The position numbers and the translations under genes are program-made. Below, piece after piece: positions 3,679 to 24,743 of a stretch of DNA of 30,959 nt. The notes beneath the pieces are model-generated. The model did not search any database. It saw nothing but the letters and a program-made list of their open reading frames with translations, and had not been told where the DNA came from. The stretch comes from a virus. The stretch's first letter is position 1; every line of letters begins with the position of its first letter. The DNA is taken from the IMG/VR virus record IMGVR_UViG_3300020183_000322, positions 1 to 30,959 of that record. One strand, 5' to 3'.

Positions 3679-4080
3679 ATGAAAAAAGAAGAACTAAAAA
3701 AGTTAATAAAACCTTTAATCAAAGAATGCCTAAAGGAAGTGCTAATAGAAGAAGGTTTTACTAAAATGCTTTCCGAAAGCGTAAAATTAACTGAACAAGT
3801 TGAACAACCAAAAATAGTTCAACAATTAAATAATGAAGCTGTACAACAAAAAAAACAAAATCTAGTAGAAGCTAGAAAAAAAATGCTAGATGAAATTGGG
3901 ATGGGCGGTTTTGATGCTTTTGCTGGTACCGCACCGCTAACTGAAGGCGGTAATCCAAATACACCAGCAATTGCAGTAACAAGTTTTAATCCATCTGATT
4001 CAGGTGTTGATATTAGCAGATTAATGAGTGGTAAAATGAAAGCAACGTTTAATGCCCTTAATGGCAAGAAAGTGAAATAA
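3679..4080 (+). CDS. Putative prohead core protein
   Basis: A 133-residue protein. The first ~60 residues are a charged amphipathic helix (KKEELKKLIKPLIKECLKEV and following), residues 61-75 are another (VEARKKMLDEIG), and the C-terminal half is low-complexity (Gly, Pro, Ser, Asn) ending in NPSDSGVDISRLMSG. I recall proteins with this KPLIKECLKEVLIEEG start and DSGVDIS end near scaffold genes of other T4-like phages. The L-T-E sites (KLTE, PLTE) resemble the LxE/IxE sites used by T4-type prohead protease, which fits a core protein that is cleaved. It lies 3 bases before the next gene. The ribosome site is TTGAGG. The functional call is inference. Confidence 0.5.
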   Translation: MKKEELKKLIKPLIKECLKEVLIEEGFTKMLSESVKLTEQVEQPKIVQQLNNEAVQQKKQNLVEARKKMLDEIGMGGFDAFAGTAPLTEGGNPNTPAIAVTSFNPSDSGVDISRLMSGKMKATFNALNGKKVK

Positions 4081-5790: not shown

Positions 5791-5810
5791 CTATCTTAAG
5801 GAGATATAAA

Positions 5811-7556
5811 ATGAGTAACGTATTAGAAAGATTAACAGAAGGCGTTGTAGAACGCAATATGTTAAATGAAACAAAAGCAGTTGTAGGCAAGTGGGAAAAG
5901 TCTGGTCTTTTAGAAGGTTTAAAGACTGAACGTGAAAAGTCAACAATGGCAGTGTTGCTTGAAAACCAAGCAAAAGAATTACTCCGCGAAGCAACCACAA
6001 TATCAGGAGGTGATGTCCAAGGTTTTGCTGCTGTAGCTTTCCCAATAGTACGCCGCGTATTTGCTGGCTTAATTGCTAACGATCTCGTATCCGTACAACC
6101 AATGAGCTTACCATCCGGTCTTGTATTCTTCATGGATTTCCGCCGTGGTAGCAGCATTGGTAATGCGGCTGATAAAGTATTTGAAGTTTCTTCTTCATTC
6201 TTTGGTGATCGCCTTGGTGTACAAATCACTGGCGGTGTCCGCGTAGATGGAGTTGATTATGCTGAAAAGGGTTTCTATAATTTAGCTAATGGTTATAATA
6301 CATCACGTTTTCACAGTTCAGTAGCAACAGGTAGCGTTGGTGTAGAAGATTTCAAATTAGCAACTGCTACAGCGGCTCAACTTTCTGCTATTCGTCATGA
6401 TCCAGACATTCTAACTGACAGCACTTTCGTATCTGGTGCTGTATTATCCATTCCTTTGGTTTCTATGAGCCAAAGTGATCTATTAGCATTGCAAGATGTA
6501 TTTGCAGTGTCAATTGTCGGCTTGACAGCTTCTGTTTCTGCTGCTGCTGGTGATATTTCTGCTGGTGCTGCATTAGCTGGTACAACCACTCGCGTTGTAC
6601 GCCGTTTAACAAAAGTAGATGGTTCTAATCTAAAACTAGTAGTAGTTTCAGACTCTTCAACTGCTAAAGCAGACTTACTAAGTGGTAAAACACACGTTGG
6701 TCTTTCTTATCCAATTAAGGATAATCTTCAAAACGTTGGCACTAATGCTCTTGGTGCAACTGTTGGCGCTACTCCTTGGACCTTTGAAGGTTCAGCAGAC
6801 ATTCCAGAAATTGAATTAAAGGTTGATTCTTTCTCAATTACTGCTCGTACCCGTAAGCTCAAGGCACAATGGACTCCAGAATTAGGCCAAGACTTGAATG
6901 CTTATCATAACTTAGATGCAGAAGTTGAATTAACATCCATGTTGTCTGAACAAATCGGTCTTGAAATTGATCAAGAAATCCTAAACGATCTCGTCAAGGG
7001 TCAAACTGCTGGCGTTAAGTACTGGTCCCGCAGCCCCGGTAAGTTTGTAAATCGTGAAACTGGTGCTGAAATTGGCGCTTCTGGTACTCCTGATTTCACT
7101 GGTAACGTCAGCATGTGGTATGAAACTCTTGTTGAAACCATCAATGATGTATCTGCAAACATTCACCGTAAGACATTACGCGGTGGTGCAAACTTCCTAG
7201 TTTGCTCACCAGAAGTTGCTAACATTCTTGAATTCACCAGCGGTTTCCGTGCTTCCGTAACCAGCGATGTAGACAAGGGTTCCGTAGGCGCTGTTAAAGT
7301 AGGCGATCTAAACAAGAAATGGGATGTAATTGTTCACCCATACTTCCTCCGTAACGTAATTCTCGTAGGTCGTAAGGGCGGTTCCTTCCTAGAAAGCGGT
7401 TACGTATATGCACCATATGTACCACTACAATCTACACCAACCATTTTCGATCCAAACAACTTTACACCACGTAAGGCTGTTTTGACCCGTTATGGTAAGG
7501 CAATGGTTCGTCCAGACATGTATGGTCTTGTAGTAGTAACCAATTTGCTTGGTTAA
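5811..7556 (+). CDS. gp23: Major capsid protein (gp23-like)
   Basis: A 581-residue HK97-fold capsid protein of the T4 gp23 type. The diagnostic region at residues ~61-110 contains ATTISGG, VRRVFAGLIANDLVSVQPM and LPSGLVFFMD, matching the gp23 segment that starts at the mature N-terminus and continues through VQPM..P.G..F. The likely prohead-protease cut is after LLRE60, leaving mature residues 61-581. The C-terminal part includes KVGDLNKKWDVIVHPY and ends TRYGKAMVRPDMYGLVVVTN. The gene has a strong ribosome site (TAAGGAGATATAAA) and uses many AAG, AAC, TTC and CGT codons, unlike the AAA/AAT-rich neighbours, as expected for a very highly expressed protein. A strong terminator follows. Confidence 0.95.
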   Translation: MSNVLERLTEGVVERNMLNETKAVVGKWEKSGLLEGLKTEREKSTMAVLLENQAKELLREATTISGGDVQGFAAVAFPIVRRVFAGLIANDLVSVQPMSLPSGLVFFMDFRRGSSIGNAADKVFEVSSSFFGDRLGVQITGGVRVDGVDYAEKGFYNLANGYNTSRFHSSVATGSVGVEDFKLATATAAQLSAIRHDPDILTDSTFVSGAVLSIPLVSMSQSDLLALQDVFAVSIVGLTASVSAAAGDISAGAALAGTTTRVVRRLTKVDGSNLKLVVVSDSSTAKADLLSGKTHVGLSYPIKDNLQNVGTNALGATVGATPWTFEGSADIPEIELKVDSFSITARTRKLKAQWTPELGQDLNAYHNLDAEVELTSMLSEQIGLEIDQEILNDLVKGQTAGVKYWSRSPGKFVNRETGAEIGASGTPDFTGNVSMWYETLVETINDVSANIHRKTLRGGANFLVCSPEVANILEFTSGFRASVTSDVDKGSVGAVKVGDLNKKWDVIVHPYFLRNVILVGRKGGSFLESGYVYAPYVPLQSTPTIFDPNNFTPRKAVLTRYGKAMVRPDMYGLVVVTNLLG

Positions 7557-9577: not shown

Positions 9578-12376
9578 ATGTCAGTTGCCAAGTTTAGATT
9601 TGTTTCCCCCGGTGTGCAAATAAATGAAATAGATAATTCACAGCTTCCTAGAACCCCAGAAGCTATGGGACCAGTAGTTATTGGTCGTTCGTTACGCGGT
9701 CCTATGATGCGCCCAGTAAAAGTACAAAGCTTTGCTGATTTTGTCGAATTATTTGGTGAACCGGTAGCTGGTGGTAAGGGTGGCGATGTATGGCGCGATG
9801 GTAATCGTTTAGCTCCTACATATGGCGTTTACGCCGCACAAGCATATTTAAGAAATTCTAATCCATTAACATTCGTTCGCTTGGGCGGTTTTCAAAATGA
9901 AAATGCTGGCAATACTACCGATGCAAAAGCTGGTTGGAAATTAGGTACTGAAACTGCTTATGGTTTGTTTTTAGCACCATTAACTGGTTCTAACCAAGTA
10001 TATAATGTTTCTGGTAGCGCACCATTGGCAGCAATTATTTATTCTAAAGATAATTCTATTGGTCTTAGTGGTTATCCATTAAGTGGCTCCACAAGAAGCG
10101 TAAGCAATCAAAAAGCAACTTGGGTTCGTACTGATGGTGCTGGTTTCGAAGTCCAAATGGTATTGAATGGCAAAAGTTTTAATGTTAACTTAAATGAATC
10201 TTCTAAAAAATATATTCGTAATGCGTTAAATGTAAATCCAACATTAACAAATTCTACTGTTGTTTCTTCTGCTGAAAACTATTTTCTTGGTGAAACTTTT
10301 CCAACTTGGGTAGCTGCTAAGGGCCACAGTTCAACAGCGGCTGACCAATATGCTGCAATATTGTTACCATTAGTAAGCAGCTCATTAGATTTTGGTAATT
10401 TCAAAAAAGGTGCTGAAGCCGCATCAACTGGCTGGATCGTATCACAACATAAAGGTGTGACCGGATCTTTTGAAGCTTCTGGTGCTTCAAATGCATATCC
10501 TGTAACAAATCTATTTAAATTAGTCGGTCTTTCTGAAGGTGAGTGGAATAGCCAAAACTTAAAAATTAGCATTGAAGATATCAAAGAACCAGCTAACGAA
10601 TTCATTAAATATGGTACATTTACTGTTTCTATCCGTAAAATTGATGATAATGATTTGAATCCTGTTTATCTTGAAAGATTTAATGGTTTAACATTAGATC
10701 CATCATCTGAAAACTTTATTGCTAGAAGAATCGGTGATAAATATACAGAATGGAGCTATACAGATAAAAAATATCTTGAATATGGTACTTACGATAATAA
10801 ATCTAAATTTGTTAGAGTACAATTAAATCCAGATGTAGAAAATGGCTTATCTGATGCCGATTTGTTGCCTTTTGGTTTCTATGGTCCACAAATACTAGAT
10901 GATAAATTAGTTACTGGTACTTCTTCTGGTAGTATTAGTGCTGCTGGTAGCTTTATTGGTACCCAAATTACCGGCTCTGCTACAAGCACATATTCTGCCA
11001 GCTTCTCACTTCCAGAATTACCATTAGTTATTTCTGGTAGCGATTTATCGTTTATACCTTCTCCATCATCTTTATATTGGGGATTAAAAACAAATTATGG
11101 AACTGTAAGAAAGCACAATAAAGACATTGTTGATGTAGTTCGCGCTCGTCCATATAATTATGACGCAGCAAAATATTCTTTCCTATTCAGTCTTGATGAT
11201 GTATCGGGTAGTGTTGTAAGTGGTAGCGTACTTGATTTGTCAACCTGCGCTTGGAGAGAGGGTTTTAGAAAAGATGGTCTTTCTTTAACCGCTCAAACAA
11301 ATACAACCGGTTCTATCACTAATTCTTCATTAGTTCTTTCAACATTTAATAAATTCACCGTTCCACTTGTAGGTGGCTTTGATGGTTTAAATATCGTTGA
11401 AAAAGATCCATTTAATAGAAGAGTATTGGCAGTAGGTGGTACCGATATTAGCAACTATGCTTATAATAGCATCAAAGTAGCAATTGAAAGCATTTCAGAT
11501 CCAGAAGTTGTTGAAATGAATTTAGCTGCTATTCCCGGTGTTGACAATCAATCCCTTACTGCTTTATTGTTAGATAAATGTGAACAACGCGGTGACGCAT
11601 TAGCAGTTCTTGACTTGAATGGCGATTATATCCCAGAAGAAGGTAAAGCCTCTCACACTACCACTGCTGCACAACGTAAACCAAATGTTAATACAACCGT
11701 ATCTAATTTAAAAGATCGTGCTATTAATAGCAGCTATGGTTGCTCTTTCTTCCCTTGGGTATTAGTTAGAGATAACCTAAATTCAAGCACTGTTTGGGTT
11801 CCACCTTCTGTTGCTGCCCTTGGTACATTCTCTAGCGCACAAGCTAACACAGAATTATGGTTTGCTCCAGCAGGATTTAATCGCGGTGGTTTAACAAATG
11901 GCGCTGCGGGTTTGCCAGTATTACAAACAGCCCTACGCTTAACTTCTAAAGATCGTGACACTCTTTATGAAGCAAATATTAATCCAATTGCTAGCTTCCC
12001 AGCAGAAGGTATTGTAATCTTTGGTCAAAAGACTCTACAAGTAACTCCTAGCGCCCTTGATCGTATCAATGTTCGTCGCTTGATGATTTACTTGAAGAAA
12101 GAAATTAGCCGTTTTGCTAGCACTATCCTATTTGATCCAAATGCAGCAGTAACTTGGAAGCGCTTTACAAATTTGGTTGTACCATTCCTTGATGGAGTTA
12201 AATCAAGATTTGGTTTAAGTGATTTCCGTGTGGTTCTCGATGAAACAACCACTACACCAGATTTGGTAGATCGTAATGTTGTTTACGCTAAGATTCTTTT
12301 GAAACCAACCCGTGCAATAGAATTTATTGCTCTTGACTTCGTAATCTTGCCTACTGGTGCATCTTTCGCAGATTAA
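9578..12376 (+). CDS. gp18: Tail sheath protein (gp18-like), enlarged
   Basis: A 932-residue contractile sheath protein. The N-terminus (FRFVSPGVQINEIDNS, then GPVVIGRSLRGPMM and FADFVELFGEP) and the C-terminus (from LFDPNAAVTWKRFTNLVVPF to YAKILLKPTRAIEFIALDFV) are the conserved sheath ends that form the inner, contractile core. The centre (~residues 110-600) is long and rich in Ser/Gly/Thr, with SGS/TGS motifs. It is presumably surface-exposed domains, giving a protein well above T4 gp18 (659 aa). The ribosome site is AAAGGAG. The second half uses more CGT, AAG and TTC codons than the first. Contraction of this sheath drives the tube through the host envelope. Confidence 0.95.
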   Translation: MSVAKFRFVSPGVQINEIDNSQLPRTPEAMGPVVIGRSLRGPMMRPVKVQSFADFVELFGEPVAGGKGGDVWRDGNRLAPTYGVYAAQAYLRNSNPLTFVRLGGFQNENAGNTTDAKAGWKLGTETAYGLFLAPLTGSNQVYNVSGSAPLAAIIYSKDNSIGLSGYPLSGSTRSVSNQKATWVRTDGAGFEVQMVLNGKSFNVNLNESSKKYIRNALNVNPTLTNSTVVSSAENYFLGETFPTWVAAKGHSSTAADQYAAILLPLVSSSLDFGNFKKGAEAASTGWIVSQHKGVTGSFEASGASNAYPVTNLFKLVGLSEGEWNSQNLKISIEDIKEPANEFIKYGTFTVSIRKIDDNDLNPVYLERFNGLTLDPSSENFIARRIGDKYTEWSYTDKKYLEYGTYDNKSKFVRVQLNPDVENGLSDADLLPFGFYGPQILDDKLVTGTSSGSISAAGSFIGTQITGSATSTYSASFSLPELPLVISGSDLSFIPSPSSLYWGLKTNYGTVRKHNKDIVDVVRARPYNYDAAKYSFLFSLDDVSGSVVSGSVLDLSTCAWREGFRKDGLSLTAQTNTTGSITNSSLVLSTFNKFTVPLVGGFDGLNIVEKDPFNRRVLAVGGTDISNYAYNSIKVAIESISDPEVVEMNLAAIPGVDNQSLTALLLDKCEQRGDALAVLDLNGDYIPEEGKASHTTTAAQRKPNVNTTVSNLKDRAINSSYGCSFFPWVLVRDNLNSSTVWVPPSVAALGTFSSAQANTELWFAPAGFNRGGLTNGAAGLPVLQTALRLTSKDRDTLYEANINPIASFPAEGIVIFGQKTLQVTPSALDRINVRRLMIYLKKEISRFASTILFDPNAAVTWKRFTNLVVPFLDGVKSRFGLSDFRVVLDETTTTPDLVDRNVVYAKILLKPTRAIEFIALDFVILPTGASFAD

Positions 12377-12432: not shown

Positions 12433-13026
12433 ATGGCATTTTGGAATGCAGCAGGACCAGAACCTAAAAGACAGTTTAGATGGTATATGTTGTTTGGTGG
12501 TAATAACGGAGCTGATTTAAGCAATATTCGCTTTGCATTAAAAAAAACCGATAAACCAAAATATAAAATTGGTGAAATAACACATAAATATTTAAATCAT
12601 AGTTTTTATTATCCCGGTCGTCTTGAATGGGAAGCAATCAATGTTACTTTTGCATCTGTAGCAGATCCAGATGCTACTTTATTAATGGATCTAGTAACAA
12701 AATTGGCTGGCTATATTGAACCAACAAATGAGAACGCGGTTGAAACAATCTCTAAGCAAAAATTTGGTGAAGCCATTGCTGCTAATGGTATTTCTTTAAT
12801 ACAAATTGATTCTAATGGTAATAAAATTGAAGAATGGTTATTAAATAATCCATTTTTTACAAATGTTAATTATGGTTCATTAGATTATGGTAGTGATGAA
12901 ATAGTGGAGATTTCTTGTACAGTGCGTTATGATTGGGCTAAACTCATTGGTAGTACTGCCGATGTTTCTGCAAACGACTCATATGATGACGCTATAGGAG
13001 AAGTTAAATCAGCTGGTACAAATTAA
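12433..13026 (+). CDS. gp19: Tail tube protein (gp19-like)
   Basis: A 197-residue protein directly after the sheath gene, as in T4. The opening MAFWNAAGPEPKRQFRWYML and the pattern KIGEITHKYLNHSFYYPGRLEWEAINVTF followed by the WLLNNPFFTNVNYGSLDYGSDEIVEI end are typical of gp19/gp54-type tube folds (T4 gp19: 163 aa). Stacked hexamers form the rigid tube inside the sheath, through which DNA passes. The ribosome site is TTAGGAGAATAAATAAA. No odd features were seen apart from a short Ser/Ala/Asp-rich C-terminal tail. Confidence 0.9.
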   Translation: MAFWNAAGPEPKRQFRWYMLFGGNNGADLSNIRFALKKTDKPKYKIGEITHKYLNHSFYYPGRLEWEAINVTFASVADPDATLLMDLVTKLAGYIEPTNENAVETISKQKFGEAIAANGISLIQIDSNGNKIEEWLLNNPFFTNVNYGSLDYGSDEIVEISCTVRYDWAKLIGSTADVSANDSYDDAIGEVKSAGTN

Positions 13027-13044: not shown

Positions 13045-13908
13045 ATGAGAAACAACGAAGAGCGTCTTGGTGCCAATATACAACGCCAAGACGCAACACC
13101 TGTAGAACAAGTAGCAAAACAAGCAGCACAAAGCGGTTTATCATTAGATTTTATAGTTCCAACAGAACTAGTGCCGCTGCCATCAAAAGGCAAATTTTAT
13201 CCACAAAATCACCCTTTGCATGGTAAAGATACTATAGAAATCAAGCAAATGACTGCAAAGGAAGAAGATATTCTTACTTCCCGCAGCCTATTAAAAAAAG
13301 GCGTTGCTCTTGATAAGCTAATAGCATCCTTAGTAACTGATAAAAGCATCAACACAGATACAATCACTTCAGAAGATCGTAATGCAATACTTGTTGCGGC
13401 ACGCATAGCAGCTTATGGGCCAAGTTATGATACGCAAGTTACTTGTCCATCTTGCAACGCAAAAGTAAAAAGTACGTTTGATCTTTATGAAAAAGTTTAC
13501 AAAGAAGAAGATGAAGAACCTCAAGCTGATTTTCCAGTAGAAATGAACGGTACTTTTGTTATTGAATTACCTTCTACTAAATGGCGCGTTATATGTCGTG
13601 CGTTAAATGGATATGATGAAAAGAACTTGATACGCATAAGTGAAAGCAAGAAAAATAGTGCTGGCGGTGATTCACTGTTAATGGAACAGCTAAAAGGCAT
13701 GATCGTTAGCATCCAGAACGTAGAAGATAAAGAGTTAATTAAAAAAGCCATAGAGGCTATGCCAGCGGCAGATTCAAGATATTTACGTAAAACATATAGC
13801 AAATATGTTAAAGGTATTGATTTAACAAAAACTTTTAATTGTTCTTCCTGCGGATATGAAACCGAAATGGAGGTGCCACTGACCGCAGACTTTTTTTGGT
13901 TTAAGTAG
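13045..13908 (+). CDS. gp26: gp26-like zinc-cluster tail/baseplate assembly protein
   Basis: A 287-residue protein with two CxxC pairs, CPSC (C134, C137) and CSSC (C266, C269), which would bind one zinc. T4 gp26, a baseplate-hub assembly protein, has the same layout of two CxxC/CxC knuckles and an ending with ..FF. The N-terminal part contains PLPSKGKFYP and IEIKQMTAKEEDIL, seen in this family. The reading frame stops soon after a seven-T run (13891-13897). The +1 frame is then open for another ~60 residues that look like real protein, so this may be the short product of a frameshift pair. The position between tube and tape-measure genes is where tail chaperone G/GT genes lie in many tailed phages. 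The ribosome site is weak (GTAGGTAG). Confidence 0.75.
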   Translation: MRNNEERLGANIQRQDATPVEQVAKQAAQSGLSLDFIVPTELVPLPSKGKFYPQNHPLHGKDTIEIKQMTAKEEDILTSRSLLKKGVALDKLIASLVTDKSINTDTITSEDRNAILVAARIAAYGPSYDTQVTCPSCNAKVKSTFDLYEKVYKEEDEEPQADFPVEMNGTFVIELPSTKWRVICRALNGYDEKNLIRISESKKNSAGGDSLLMEQLKGMIVSIQNVEDKELIKKAIEAMPAADSRYLRKTYSKYVKGIDLTKTFNCSSCGYETEMEVPLTADFFWFK

Positions 13909-14080
13909 CGAATACCAAGAAAATATCTATCAAATATTTTTCTATTTAAAATATTACGGTGGTTTCAGTCTTTTTGAGAGTTATAATTTACCAGTAGCAT
14001 TGAGAAAATGGTTTGTTGATAAACTCTCGGAACAATTAAAAGAAGAAAATGATGCTGTTCAAAAAGCATCTAGAAAATAA
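13883..14080 (+). CDS. +1-frame C-terminal extension of the gp26-like protein
   Basis: An open frame of 65 codons between TGA (13880) and TAA (14078), in the +1 frame relative to the gp26-like gene. It has no ATG, GTG or TTG until the TTG in the LPVALRKW region, so it cannot start conventionally at full length. The sequence has clear protein character: GLSSEYQENIYQIFFYLKYY, then GGFSLFESYNLPVALRKWFV, then a charged helix. I recall GGF...NLPV.LR-type segments following gp26 homologues in other T4-like phages. A +1 (or -2) shift at the T7 run would give ..TADFF-GLSSEYQ... A terminator follows immediately, so the segment lies inside the transcription unit. The alternative is a single extra T in the assembly. 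Confidence 0.65.
   Translation, partial: PQTFFGLSSEYQENIYQIFFYLKYYGGFSLFESYNLPVALRKWFVDKLSEQLKEENDAVQKASRK
13891..13897 (+). other. T7 run, candidate frameshift site
   Basis: Seven T in a row, read as TTT TTT TGG in frame 0, located 8 bases before the frame-0 stop TAG. Slippage of +1 or -2 joins the gp26-like frame to the downstream extension. Removal of one T would also fuse the frames. Confidence 0.5.
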
Positions 14081-14083
14081 ACA

Positions 14084-14116
14084 GAGAGCGAGCTAAAACT
14101 CGCTCTTTTTTCTTTT
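14084..14116 (+). terminator. Rho-independent terminator before the tape-measure gene
   Basis: AGAGCGAG (14085-14092), six-base loop, CTCGCTCT (14099-14106) form an 8-bp perfect stem followed by six T and a second T4 run. It lies just after the +1-frame extension and separates it from the tape-measure gene. Confidence 0.9.
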
Positions 14117-14160: not shown

Positions 14161-16923
14161 ATGGCACCACCTCCCACGCCACCCGGAACACCACCAGCGC
14201 CCGCTGCGCCACCCACCCCTCCTGCTGCTCCTCAACCGGGTGGCAGTCGTCAATTAACAGCATCTGAATTGGAATCTCTTAAAAGAGAAGCAGATTTAAT
14301 GAAATCAATAAATTTGTTGACCGAAACAAGATTGCAACAATTAACACAAATAGCTGAAAAGGAGGGAGCAATACAAAGAGATGCGGATAAATATATTAAG
14401 CAAAGATTAGAAAGAACTAATGAAATTGCCGATCTTGAAAAAAAAATATTACAAGAAACTTTAAAATTAGATAAAGCGGATGCACAAGTATTAACAAATT
14501 TACGTGAACAATTAGCTACAAAAAAAGAAGAACAAAAAAAAGAAGAGGAAAAATCAGAAAAAATCGCTAGAAGATTAGAGTTATTAAGAAAAGAAAAAGA
14601 AGAATTATTATTAAGAGCTGAAGCTATAAAACGTGAACGTAATCTTCACGTTGAAATATTTGATAGTATGAAAAGTCAGCTTGCTTCAACAACTGGTTTA
14701 AGCACATTATTTAATGCTCTTAATTCAAAAATGTCTTTACAAGCCGCTATAGTATTACAAGTAGCAGATATAGCTAGTAGATTATTTACTGATGTTTTAC
14801 AAGCTAATAGCCAATTTGCTGCCACCACTGGTCAAATAGCTGACATGACTAATTTTAGTGCAGAAGGTATGGCTAAGTTTGGTGTTGGTTTTAAAGATAT
14901 GCGCGAAGCAGCTGGATCTTTATTCGTAACAATGAGTGATTTTTCTAAATTACAACCAGACTTACAAACTAAATTAGCTGGTTCGGCTGCTGCAATGAAA
15001 AATCTAGGAGTTAGCGTTGAAACATCTGGTAAAAACTTTGATGCGTTAACCAAATCTCTCAAAATGACCGCTGAAGAAGCAGTGCAAACAAACGATAAAT
15101 TAGCTAGAGCAGCTATTGGTGCTGGTATTGCACCTAGCAAAATGTTGAGTGAGTTTGGTCCCGCCATGAGCAAAATGGCAGCTTATGGTAAACAAGGAGT
15201 AGATGTATTTATTGGCATGGAAAAAGCTGCTAAAAGTCTTGGAATGGAAATGGGGACTTTAAATGGTATTATTGGCGACTCCTTTGATACTTTCGAAGGA
15301 GCCGCTAGTGCTGCTGGTAAATTAAACGCAGTATTAGGCGGTGATTATTTAAATTCTGTAGAGATGTTAAATGCGACAGAAAGCGAAAGAATAGTTTTAT
15401 TAAAAGAATCGTTTGATGCTAGCGGAAAGAATTTTGATCAATTAAGCAAATATGAGAAAAAAGCAATTGCTGCTGCAATAGGCATAAGTGATTTAAATGA
15501 AGCAAATAAATTATTTAGTTCTTCTACATCTCAACTTCGCATGGATATGATGCAACAAGAAGCAACACAAGAACAGTTGGCAAAAACTCAAGCTGCCGCA
15601 GCGGATGTTACTAAACAAATGAGCGCTGCTTTTGATAGTTTAGTAGTTGCTATAGCTCCGTTAGCTACATTATTTAAATATTTCGTTGAAACTATTGTTG
15701 CATTGAATGATAAAACTCGCGGCTTATTGGTAATAATTGCTGCCGGTGTTGGTATATGGCTAGCTTCTACAAAAGCTATAATTGCTTTTAAAGAAGCTTG
15801 GGCTATTTTAGATTTGACAACTACAAGATCTAAAATTGGTTTAGTAATAGCTGCTGTTGCTATGGCTTTAATGTTTTTACATGATACTTTGCTTGTTCCA
15901 CATTCGCCAATATTACTATTTGCATTATTAATGCTACCGCCTATCATTTATGCAATAGGCGAAGCCGCAGATGCTAGTGAAAAAGGTTTGTTAGCGTTGG
16001 GTGCATCTGCATTAATGGTTGGTGCTGGCGTATTTCTTGCAGCAGAAGGCTTGGCAGCACTTGTAGCATCGTTTAATGGTTTAGGTGATGCTGCGCCTAT
16101 TGCGGCTGCTGCTTTAGGTATTTTTCTTATTGCATTCGTTGTCATGGTTGCAATAATGGCTAAAATGGCCCCAGTAACAGCAATAGCAGCGCTTGGAGTG
16201 TTAGCTTTAGGTGGCGCGGTATTGATGTTAGGTGGCGGTATAGCTCTTGCAGCGCTTGGTATGGCAGAATTAGTTAAAAGCATAGGCGCTCTTGCCAAAA
16301 GCCTTGGACCAGAAGCAGTTAAATCTTTATTAGCAATATCGGCATCAGTTTTAATGCTAGCTAGTGCAGCAACTTTAATGTTAATTGGTGCTTTTGGTAT
16401 TAGAGCATTAAGTGGTGCAATAGGCAGCATTAGAGATGCAATTGCTGGCGAAGGTACAAGCGAAAATATAAAAGCATTTGGCGATTCTATGCTTGGTTTA
16501 TCGCAAATATTAGCTTTTGAAGGTATTGAAGAAAGCGCAGCAAAAGTTGTAAATGCAATAAGAATGATAGCTGAAGAAATTGCCTCTATTAGTGAAGGTG
16601 ATAATGTTGTTAAATTTGGTACTGCTATGACTTCTTTAAATAATGTACTAACAACAGCAAAAACAGTTACTGAAGAAGAAATTAAACCAGCTAAAGGATT
16701 TATAGATGCTGCAAGACAATATTATGTTGCACAAGCGGCTTCTAAAGATACAGATAAAGATGCGCTAGTTGCTGCCATAAAAGAACTAAAAAATGTGTTT
16801 GCCGCTAAAGAAACCGCTGGCGGGGCAGAACAACCAATGAAAGTACGTTTAGTTGTTGGCGCTGATGAATTTGAAGCTAAGATGTTTGGTTTAAATAGTA
16901 ACACAGCAAATATTATAAGATAG
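14161..16923 (+). CDS. Tail tape-measure protein
   Basis: A 920-residue protein. Residues 1-30 are a Pro/Ala tract. Residues ~35-165 are a Glu/Lys/Leu coiled coil. Residues ~170-500 are mixed helices with many Ala/Met/Ser. Residues ~515-760 are a chain of long hydrophobic segments (LLVIIAAGVGIWLAS, SPILLFALLMLPPIIYAIGE, AALGIFLIAFVVMVAIMAKM and others) that could enter the host membrane during ejection. The last ~150 residues are charged. This is the usual pattern of tape-measure proteins, and the position after tube and chaperone-type genes fits. T4's equivalent is gp29 (590 aa), so a longer tail is possible because length scales with tail length. The gene follows a terminator and has a TTGAGGAATT ribosome site. 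Confidence 0.85.
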   Translation: MAPPPTPPGTPPAPAAPPTPPAAPQPGGSRQLTASELESLKREADLMKSINLLTETRLQQLTQIAEKEGAIQRDADKYIKQRLERTNEIADLEKKILQETLKLDKADAQVLTNLREQLATKKEEQKKEEEKSEKIARRLELLRKEKEELLLRAEAIKRERNLHVEIFDSMKSQLASTTGLSTLFNALNSKMSLQAAIVLQVADIASRLFTDVLQANSQFAATTGQIADMTNFSAEGMAKFGVGFKDMREAAGSLFVTMSDFSKLQPDLQTKLAGSAAAMKNLGVSVETSGKNFDALTKSLKMTAEEAVQTNDKLARAAIGAGIAPSKMLSEFGPAMSKMAAYGKQGVDVFIGMEKAAKSLGMEMGTLNGIIGDSFDTFEGAASAAGKLNAVLGGDYLNSVEMLNATESERIVLLKESFDASGKNFDQLSKYEKKAIAAAIGISDLNEANKLFSSSTSQLRMDMMQQEATQEQLAKTQAAAADVTKQMSAAFDSLVVAIAPLATLFKYFVETIVALNDKTRGLLVIIAAGVGIWLASTKAIIAFKEAWAILDLTTTRSKIGLVIAAVAMALMFLHDTLLVPHSPILLFALLMLPPIIYAIGEAADASEKGLLALGASALMVGAGVFLAAEGLAALVASFNGLGDAAPIAAAALGIFLIAFVVMVAIMAKMAPVTAIAALGVLALGGAVLMLGGGIALAALGMAELVKSIGALAKSLGPEAVKSLLAISASVLMLASAATLMLIGAFGIRALSGAIGSIRDAIAGEGTSENIKAFGDSMLGLSQILAFEGIEESAAKVVNAIRMIAEEIASISEGDNVVKFGTAMTSLNNVLTTAKTVTEEEIKPAKGFIDAARQYYVAQAASKDTDKDALVAAIKELKNVFAAKETAGGAEQPMKVRLVVGADEFEAKMFGLNSNTANIIR

Positions 16924-23528: not shown

Positions 23529-24743
23529 GTGATATTTCAAACTCTTGATGATAAAAATGAATGTGTTGGAATTTATTATAAAAATAATTTGTTATTTAAT
23601 TCTATACTTCCAAATGACATTGACAAAACATGGTCATATTCAGCATTTTTAAAAAATAGAAATATTCAATTTGCTGAACTATATTGCAATGGTAAAAGCT
23701 TAGATGATGTGTGCCCTAGTCAATTTAAAAATGATTGGGAACAGGCTACTAATGTGATTAAAAATCACATTTTGGCTTGCAATAGTGCAAAAATTAATTT
23801 AAAAGAAAATTGTTTTTTTGATTTAGTACCGAAAAAGATATTATCTAAATATTGTGAAGTAAAAAATAATATCACTAAACATGTTTTTGAGACACATGAT
23901 AAACCGTTAGAATATAATTTTTATAAAAGGTTTATTGAACTTGTTACCGATATAAAATACAGAAATCTTAATATAAATTTAGAAAACATGCATAATAAGT
24001 TGTATAAAGATTCTGCTGATGCATTTTATAAGAAAATTTGTAGTAATAAAAATTATATTAATTATAATATCTTTGGAAGTGTAACTGGAAGACTAACTGT
24101 AGAAAAAGATAGTTTTCCTATTTTAACTTTTCCAAAGCAATATAGAAATATTTTGTTACCAAATAACGATTGGTTTATTAGTTTTGATATGAATGCAGCA
24201 GAAATACGTACTGCTCTTGCTTTGGCTGGTAAACAACAACCATTTGGCGATTTCCATGATTGGACAATAGCCAATGTTTATAATAATGAATTGAATAGAG
24301 CAGATGCAAAACAAACTACAACATCATGGCTTTATAATTCTAATTCATTAAATGCATTGAAATATGATATTCGTTTATCTAATATCTTTAATAAACAAAA
24401 ATTAAAAAATGATTATTGGATTAATGGAATAGTTAAAACTCCATTTAATAGAAATATAGAGGCGGATGAGCATCATGCAATTTCATATTTAAATCAATCA
24501 ACTTTCATTGATTTATTTCACAGACAAATAATTAAAGTAGATGATTATCTACAAAATAAAAAGTCTTTTATTGCATTTATGATTCATGATGAATTAGTAT
24601 TAGATATAACAGAAGACGAAAAAAATAATCTTATTGATATAATTAAAATTTTGCAAGACACACCATATGGTATTTTTCCTGTCAATATTAAAGCAGGAAA
24701 AAACTTTGGTGAAATGAAAAAGCTAAATTTAAAGGTTGAATAA
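23529..24743 (+). CDS. Compact, divergent family-A DNA polymerase
   Basis: A 404-residue protein with GTG start (the ATG just before runs into TGA; ribosome site TTAGAGG). It carries the family-A polymerase signatures in order: TGRL (186-189); motif A FDMNAAEIR (D220, E225, R227); DFHDWTIANVY, comparable with DIHRATAAEVF; motif B with R257, K261 and Y269 spaced as in Pol I R754/K758/Y766; an NQST segment like Pol I MQGT (Q849 equivalent); motif C IHDE (H353, D354, E355). Both metal-binding aspartates are present. Odd points: the Pol I F762 position is Thr, the Gly after the motif-B Tyr is Asn, the thumb/fingers region is short, and no 3'-5' exonuclease motifs are visible in residues 1-150. 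Its stop overlaps the next ATG. Confidence 0.75.
   Translation: MIFQTLDDKNECVGIYYKNNLLFNSILPNDIDKTWSYSAFLKNRNIQFAELYCNGKSLDDVCPSQFKNDWEQATNVIKNHILACNSAKINLKENCFFDLVPKKILSKYCEVKNNITKHVFETHDKPLEYNFYKRFIELVTDIKYRNLNINLENMHNKLYKDSADAFYKKICSNKNYINYNIFGSVTGRLTVEKDSFPILTFPKQYRNILLPNNDWFISFDMNAAEIRTALALAGKQQPFGDFHDWTIANVYNNELNRADAKQTTTSWLYNSNSLNALKYDIRLSNIFNKQKLKNDYWINGIVKTPFNRNIEADEHHAISYLNQSTFIDLFHRQIIKVDDYLQNKKSFIAFMIHDELVLDITEDEKNNLIDIIKILQDTPYGIFPVNIKAGKNFGEMKKLNLKVE

Follow-up and report, generated by a model that had tools for sequence, protein, structure and literature searches.

The G and GT proteins of phage lambda arise through a -1 frameshift, and a known case of +1 frameshifting is RF2 (prfB), whose site (CUU UGA) has a Shine-Dalgarno-like element 3 nt upstream. 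The two lambda proteins have a common body, which binds the tape measure, while GT has in addition the T part, which binds the tube protein (PMC5009743). The G-T shift is described in the same 2016 review as conserved in long-tailed phages 'except T4', and a probable +1 G-T shift is noted for HSTV-2, a haloarchaeal myovirus (PMC5009743). The gp26 and gp51 proteins are listed as hub assembly chaperones by Leiman et al. (PMC3004832). Sullivan et al. (PMC3037559) observed that cyanophage gp51 is cut down to ~20% of its normal length and is similar to the C-terminus only, and they do not mention frameshifting; similarly, baseplate, gp26 and cyanophage are unmentioned in PRFect (PMC10885494). A full-text literature search, with subscription papers and preprints outside its reach, returned neither a report of a gp26 frameshift nor a paper that links gp26/gp51 to G-T frameshifting.

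Gene order and family of the gp26-like protein

The window (the whole 30,959-nt stretch of an IMG/VR virus record that was analysed) carries on its plus strand, where the hexamer, frameshift site, extension and hairpin given below also lie: (i) a tail sheath gene (9578..12376; phrog_23 tail sheath, E 5e-73), (ii) a tail tube gene (12433..13026; phrog_4542 tail tube, E 4e-22), (iii) a gp26-like gene in frame 0 (13045..13908), and (iv) a gene for a 920-aa protein (14161..16923). The 287-aa product of the gp26-like gene, termed here the short form ('G'), is a member of the T4 gp26 family by its match to PF12322 (T4_baseplate; 67.7 bits over residues 57-285, compared to a curated cut-off of 24.5) and also matches phrog_150 (E 7e-18). 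The 920-aa gene is taken as the tape measure by position only: the annotated tape measure of phages immuto and LIS04 occupies the same place, the immuto protein aligns weakly with that of the window, and a profile search of the 920-aa protein detects no PHROG or Pfam match. The gp26-like gene is, thus, situated between a tail tube identified by profile and a tape-measure gene identified by position. Further downstream (23529-24743), the window encodes a 404-aa protein in which DNA polymerase A-like motifs (FDMNAAEIR and HDELVLD) are read by eye and an exonuclease domain is, by eye, apparently absent.

The slippery site and its +1-frame extension

The gp26-like gene ends with GAC TTT TTT TGG TTT AAG TAG, of which GAC TTT TTT TGG (13888..13899) forms the candidate frameshift site, with a putative P-site TTT (13894-13896) and A-site TGG (13897-13899). 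The run of seven T (13891-13897) is followed by the frame-0 stop (13906-13908) at the 8-base distance given in the earlier note. Past the T run, the +1 frame reads FFGLSSEYQENIYQIFFYLKYYGGFSLFESYNLPVALRKWFVDKLSEQLKEENDAVQKASRK and closes with a stop at 14078-14080. The extension ('T' tail, 13898..14080) is 60 aa plus stop, and the fused long form is predicted to be 344 aa. The earlier note described this frame as about 60 codons in length, devoid of an early start codon and closed just before a terminator, and each of these points is borne out: the frame has 60 codons and ends at 14080; no ATG, GTG or TTG appears until the TTG at 14000, which falls inside the conserved core; and an intrinsic terminator-like hairpin (14083..14108), with a 10-pair stem and a subsequent T run, lies directly beyond. 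Since an opening of 62 codons has a ~1% chance of occurring at a random point in base-shuffled sequence, length alone is weak evidence and conservation is decisive.

Conservation among close relatives

A search of IMG/VR with the gp26-like protein retrieved 80 loci, from which 55 unique sequences, including the window, were compiled (duplicates removed, readable across the site, 45-66% identical); no relative was found in GTDB genomes using a short-form profile. All 55 sequences have TTY TTT TGG, with TTT and TGG each present in 55/55 and the frame-0 stop 3, 4 or 6 sense codons on, counted from TGG. The P-site TTT is invariant, compared to 330 TTT and 110 TTC among the Phe codons elsewhere in the gene, while the preceding Phe codon is TTT in 48 and TTC in 7 of the sequences and the GAC upstream is found in 52/54. 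The extension is likewise conserved in 55/55, with the common +1 peptide FGL(S/T)xxYxxxxYexFFxLKYxGG(F/W)SxxExYNLPxxLRxWFvxxL. Of the differences between the sequences in the extension, 28% fall on the first, 18% on the second and 55% on the third codon position of the +1 frame, the pattern that a protein-coding frame would leave. Being related, the 55 sequences are not 55 independent events; their identity reaches down to 45%. The gp26-like/+1-extension arrangement is far from chance, and both the conservation of the shift site and the coding nature of the tail can be read from the sequences themselves.

The homopolymer at the site could point to a sequencing error or a decayed gene, yet both are exceedingly improbable: the same frames recur in all 55 unique sequences, which come from many metagenomes, as well as in the completed genomes of cultured phages, and the tail is under coding-type constraint. 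The earlier note named six T in one clean frame, a simple fusion, as contrary to a frameshift. Dozens of independent metagenomes exclude this outcome, as do the relatives with TTC TTT TGG.

These TTC TTT TGG relatives also bear on the nature of the slip. Slippage of RNA polymerase on the T7 run, to generate mRNAs in the other frame, would suit the window and the 48/55 unique sequences with seven T. It is very unlikely, because 7/55 sequences have TTC TTT TGG (TTCTTTT, only four T) and 28/61 sequences of a second clade have TTTCTTT; these runs are too short, and the arrangement is nonetheless retained. A slip of -2 in place of +1 is rejected, as the TTC TTT TGG relatives would mis-pair. A shift on the stop codon itself, in the manner of RF2, is also rejected: a conserved Gly-Leu of the +1 frame precedes the stop, and the shift must, therefore, occur earlier than the stop codon.

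A conserved GGAGGT hexamer

A Shine-Dalgarno-like hexamer, GGAGGT (13869..13874), is present in 51/54 unique relatives. The Glu codon within it is GAG in 53/54 sequences compared to 221/979 (23%) elsewhere in the gene; the hexamer is under real synonymous constraint. GGAGGT begins 25 nt upstream of the slippery codon, with 19 nt between the two, which does not match the spacing in RF2, and the site differs from the prfB type in having this distance in place of ~3 nt to the P-site codon and in having TGG in the A-site. A consensus RNA fold at the site has weak pairing (-2.1 kcal/mol) between GGAGGT and ACTTTY with one covarying pair and is unconvincing as a structure element.

Other +1 lineages

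The +1 shift layout extends beyond the window to relatives that include Flavobacterium, Microcystis and Rhodothermus phages. Relatives of Flavobacterium phage immuto form a second +1 clade of 61 sequences, of which 60 have TTT YTN TGG, with CTT (28), TTT (29) or CTA (3) as the second codon; the sole exception (L234) has TTT CTT TAC and, thus, TAC for TGG in the A-site. A start codon is absent from the first 8 tail codons in 60/60 sequences of this clade. Phages RM378 and Mel-JY01 have TTT TTT TGG. A layout of gene and shifted tail is found in cultured RM378, Mel-JY01 and immuto and, with the -1 site described below, in RaK2, PA5oct-type MIJ3 and Atu_ph07. In SP-15, LIS04 and SagM-GXN1 (L084, L086 and L088), which have Gram-positive hosts, a +1-frame tail is observed with no TTT TGG; a CC CGA TTY stretch occurs upstream of the stop in these phages, and the shift site may differ.

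A -1 branch in cyanophages, KVP40-type and jumbo phages

The gp26 gene of cyanophages and KVP40-type phages ends with T TTT TTC, one codon and a stop in 78/78 unique sequences, and a homologous tail is encoded in the -1 frame in 78/78. The U_UUU_UUC heptamer is kept against the codon background of this clade, as TTT outnumbers TTC among Phe codons elsewhere (558 to 219) and 65% of Ser codons end in T. The genes of RaK2, PA5oct-type MIJ3 and Atu_ph07 end as T TTT TTC, and that of XacN1 has T TTT TTT. The earlier note had asked for a check that the T7 run and the out-of-frame extension are conserved among related phages. Such conservation is seen in three clades, with one refinement: the signal that is kept is not the T7 run itself. 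In the +1 clades TGG is preceded by a slippery P-site codon (TTT or TTT-YTN), and the -1 clades keep T TTT TTC.

Records of this branch label the -1 tail 'gp51 baseplate hub assembly catalyst', as a separate gp51 in the cyanophages. The gp51 of S-RIM8 (2732-2869 of locus L095) is annotated from an internal ATG and is, therefore, probably truncated, as the conserved tail begins before that ATG, in the frame that is -1 to gp26. At 3863-4057 of locus L069, phrog_20255 (a 63-aa family) matches the tail colinearly (E 8e-5) and may represent this tail, listed there as an ORF of its own.

These annotations raise the alternative that the tail is a separate small gp51-like protein, made by termination and re-initiation near the gp26 stop with no fusion. 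In 44/78 sequences of the -1 clade the tail's frame contains an ATG no more than 12 nt from the stop, and phiM9, VAP7 and KVP40 have a stop-start overlap at the end of gp26; separate initiation of the tail is, therefore, possible in these cases. As an account of the system, re-initiation is improbable: no start is found in the first 8 tail codons of the immuto clade or of close relatives of the window, the conserved peptide starts directly past the slip codon, the slippery codons are invariant, and T4 has the tail joined to a gp26-like body. A start-less out-of-frame extension combined with a conserved slippery site is, thus, a property of the close clade of the window and of the immuto clade, not of all the -1 clade. 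The earlier note listed, as evidence against a frameshift, homologues in which the extension forms a gene that has a start codon of its own. The two +1 clades do not have this arrangement, but it is possible in part of the -1 clade and in phiM9, VAP7 and KVP40.

Homology of the tails and the T4 gp26/gp51 pair

Two profiles match the gp51 protein of T4 (249 aa): PF12322 at residues 1-201 (E 4e-52) and phrog_634, 'baseplate hub assembly catalyst', at residues 147-246 (E 1e-23). T4 gp26 matches PF12322 and is without the tail. The -1 tail of cyanophage S-RIM8 also matches phrog_634 (E 4e-21). Genes 26 and 51 of T4 are two genes, divergently transcribed; for gene 26 (5803-6090 of locus L094), the annotation gives an internal product, 26', as well. 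Profile comparisons, each run with twenty column-shuffled controls, relate the tails stepwise: the +1 tail to the immuto tail (E 1.5e-13; lowest shuffled control 0.002), the +1 tail to the -1 tail (E 1.3e-5; control 0.008) and the -1 tail to the T4 gp51 tail (E 1.9e-10; control 0.0005). Compared directly, the +1 tail and the T4 gp51 tail are not significantly related (E 0.45) and are joined through the -1 tails. Structural models were built of the short form and of one T4-type gp51, and the latter is predicted to have a tail of helix, short helix and helix.

The number of PF12322 genes per record follows the same division. Two are found in 6/6 two-gene phages (T4, 44RR, 05F and three others) compared to one in 10/10 frameshifting phages that have a match; Mel-JY01 and immuto, both with the frameshift layout, have no match in this whole-record profile search. 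As judged from the stepwise homology and the family copy number, both sequence observations, T4 gp51 is most simply read as another copy of the gp26 family with the tail fused in frame, and T4 gp26 as the short form. That T4 uses two genes to make the short form (gp26) and the long form (gp51) is, on this basis, likely. Because two copies in one group stand against one copy in the other, gp26 probably behaves like lambda G, and the shifted form and T4 gp51 like GT. The earlier suggestion that gp26 acts like G is, thus, strengthened by T4 gp51 appearing as a gp26 paralogue that bears the extension in frame.

Proposed mechanism and role of the two forms

Programmed frameshifting at the gp26-like site is very probable given the conserved slip codons and the out-of-frame coding tail; the slipping itself, its efficiency and the chaperone role are what we infer. 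The gene at 13045-13908 would yield the short, G-like chaperone in standard translation, and a minority of ribosomes would slip +1 at UUU-U ahead of the slow UGG codon. A +1 slip of tRNA-Phe on UUU-U is favored because UUU and the U of UGG are common to all 55 sequences. The P-site tRNA-Phe would move one base forward and re-pair with UUU while tRNA-Trp is awaited, and reading would resume at GGU. The slip would add a helical tail of 60 aa to form the GT-like long form. By analogy to lambda, the shared body may bind the tape measure and the tail may recruit the tube or hub, after which both forms leave.

That the short form and shifted long form act as a tail-assembly chaperone pair is likely, and, by analogy, the anatomy appears to work like that of G/GT. 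In Pfam, the gp26-like body matches no known chaperone family of the lambda type, and sequence and fold searches of the PDB detect no significant relative. Among the matches listed, one PDB entry alone, the HK97 tail assembly chaperone 2ob9, exceeds a TM score of 0.5 to the gp26-like model (TM 0.54 by target length), and this match is not significant (E 3.9). A related account accepts the frameshift and assigns to the long form solely the classical gp51 role of a hub-assembly catalyst, with no tube recruitment of the lambda T kind. T4 gp51 is known as a hub assembly factor that is essential and does not occur in the particle (PMC3004832), and no homology to lambda T is found, both of which suit this account. 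It is considered unlikely, as the gene is flanked, like its lambda counterpart, by the tube and tape-measure genes, a short and a long form have a common body, and the modeled body weakly resembles the HK97 chaperone fold.

Extended to the T4-type phages as a general device, the chaperone pair would be produced by (i) a +1 shift, (ii) a -1 shift on U_UUU_UUC, as in cyanophages, KVP40-type phages and several jumbo phages, or (iii) two paralogous genes, 26 (short) and 51 (long). It is reasonably probable that such a short/long pair is universal in T4-type phages, mostly by +1 or -1 shifts and, in the kin of T4, by the paralogues 26 (G) and 51 (GT).

Comparison with known systems

The gp26-like locus shares with lambda G/GT the position of the gene between the tube and the tape-measure position, a short form and a predicted shifted long form with a small C-terminal domain, and a conserved slippery site near the stop. 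By contrast, the predicted shift of the window is +1 (UUU-U before UGG), and the body belongs to the T4 gp26 family, of zinc-ribbon type, for which homology to G is not detectable at the sequence level. If the proposed reading is correct, the data remove the exception of the T4 superfamily from G-T frameshifting (PMC5009743). The haloarchaeal HSTV-2 is similar in its probable +1 direction and contractile tail, a likeness drawn from its description.

The prfB site of RF2 is closest to the second +1 clade, in which CUU UGG C is one base from CTT TGA C of prfB, and a slippery P-site codon precedes a slow UG-codon in both. The systems differ in that the A-site codon is sense UGG, not a stop, that no Shine-Dalgarno-like element lies 3 nt upstream, and that constitutive production of isoforms, not autoregulation, is expected here. 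The cyanophage/KVP40 branch resembles dnaX-type U_UUU_UUC sites in its perfect X XXY YYZ heptamer and a purine-rich GAG GGN ~10 nt upstream, which is not the mechanism of the clade of the window.

T4 gp26/gp51 are of the same PF12322 family, gp51 with the tail in frame and gp26 without it, and differ as two divergently transcribed genes compared to one frameshifted gene. A shifted tail would account for the resemblance of cyanophage gp51 to the last fifth of T4 gp51, which was noted without explanation (PMC3037559), and annotations in many marine phages would be corrected. T4 gp26 and gp51 are essential and have no agreed mechanism, and the present reading supplies one that can be tested: if true, the long unexplained 'hub assembly catalyst' gp51 of T4 is GT and gp26 is G. 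The +1, -1 and two-gene arrangements would, thus, form a natural series of solutions to one need across multiple lineages.
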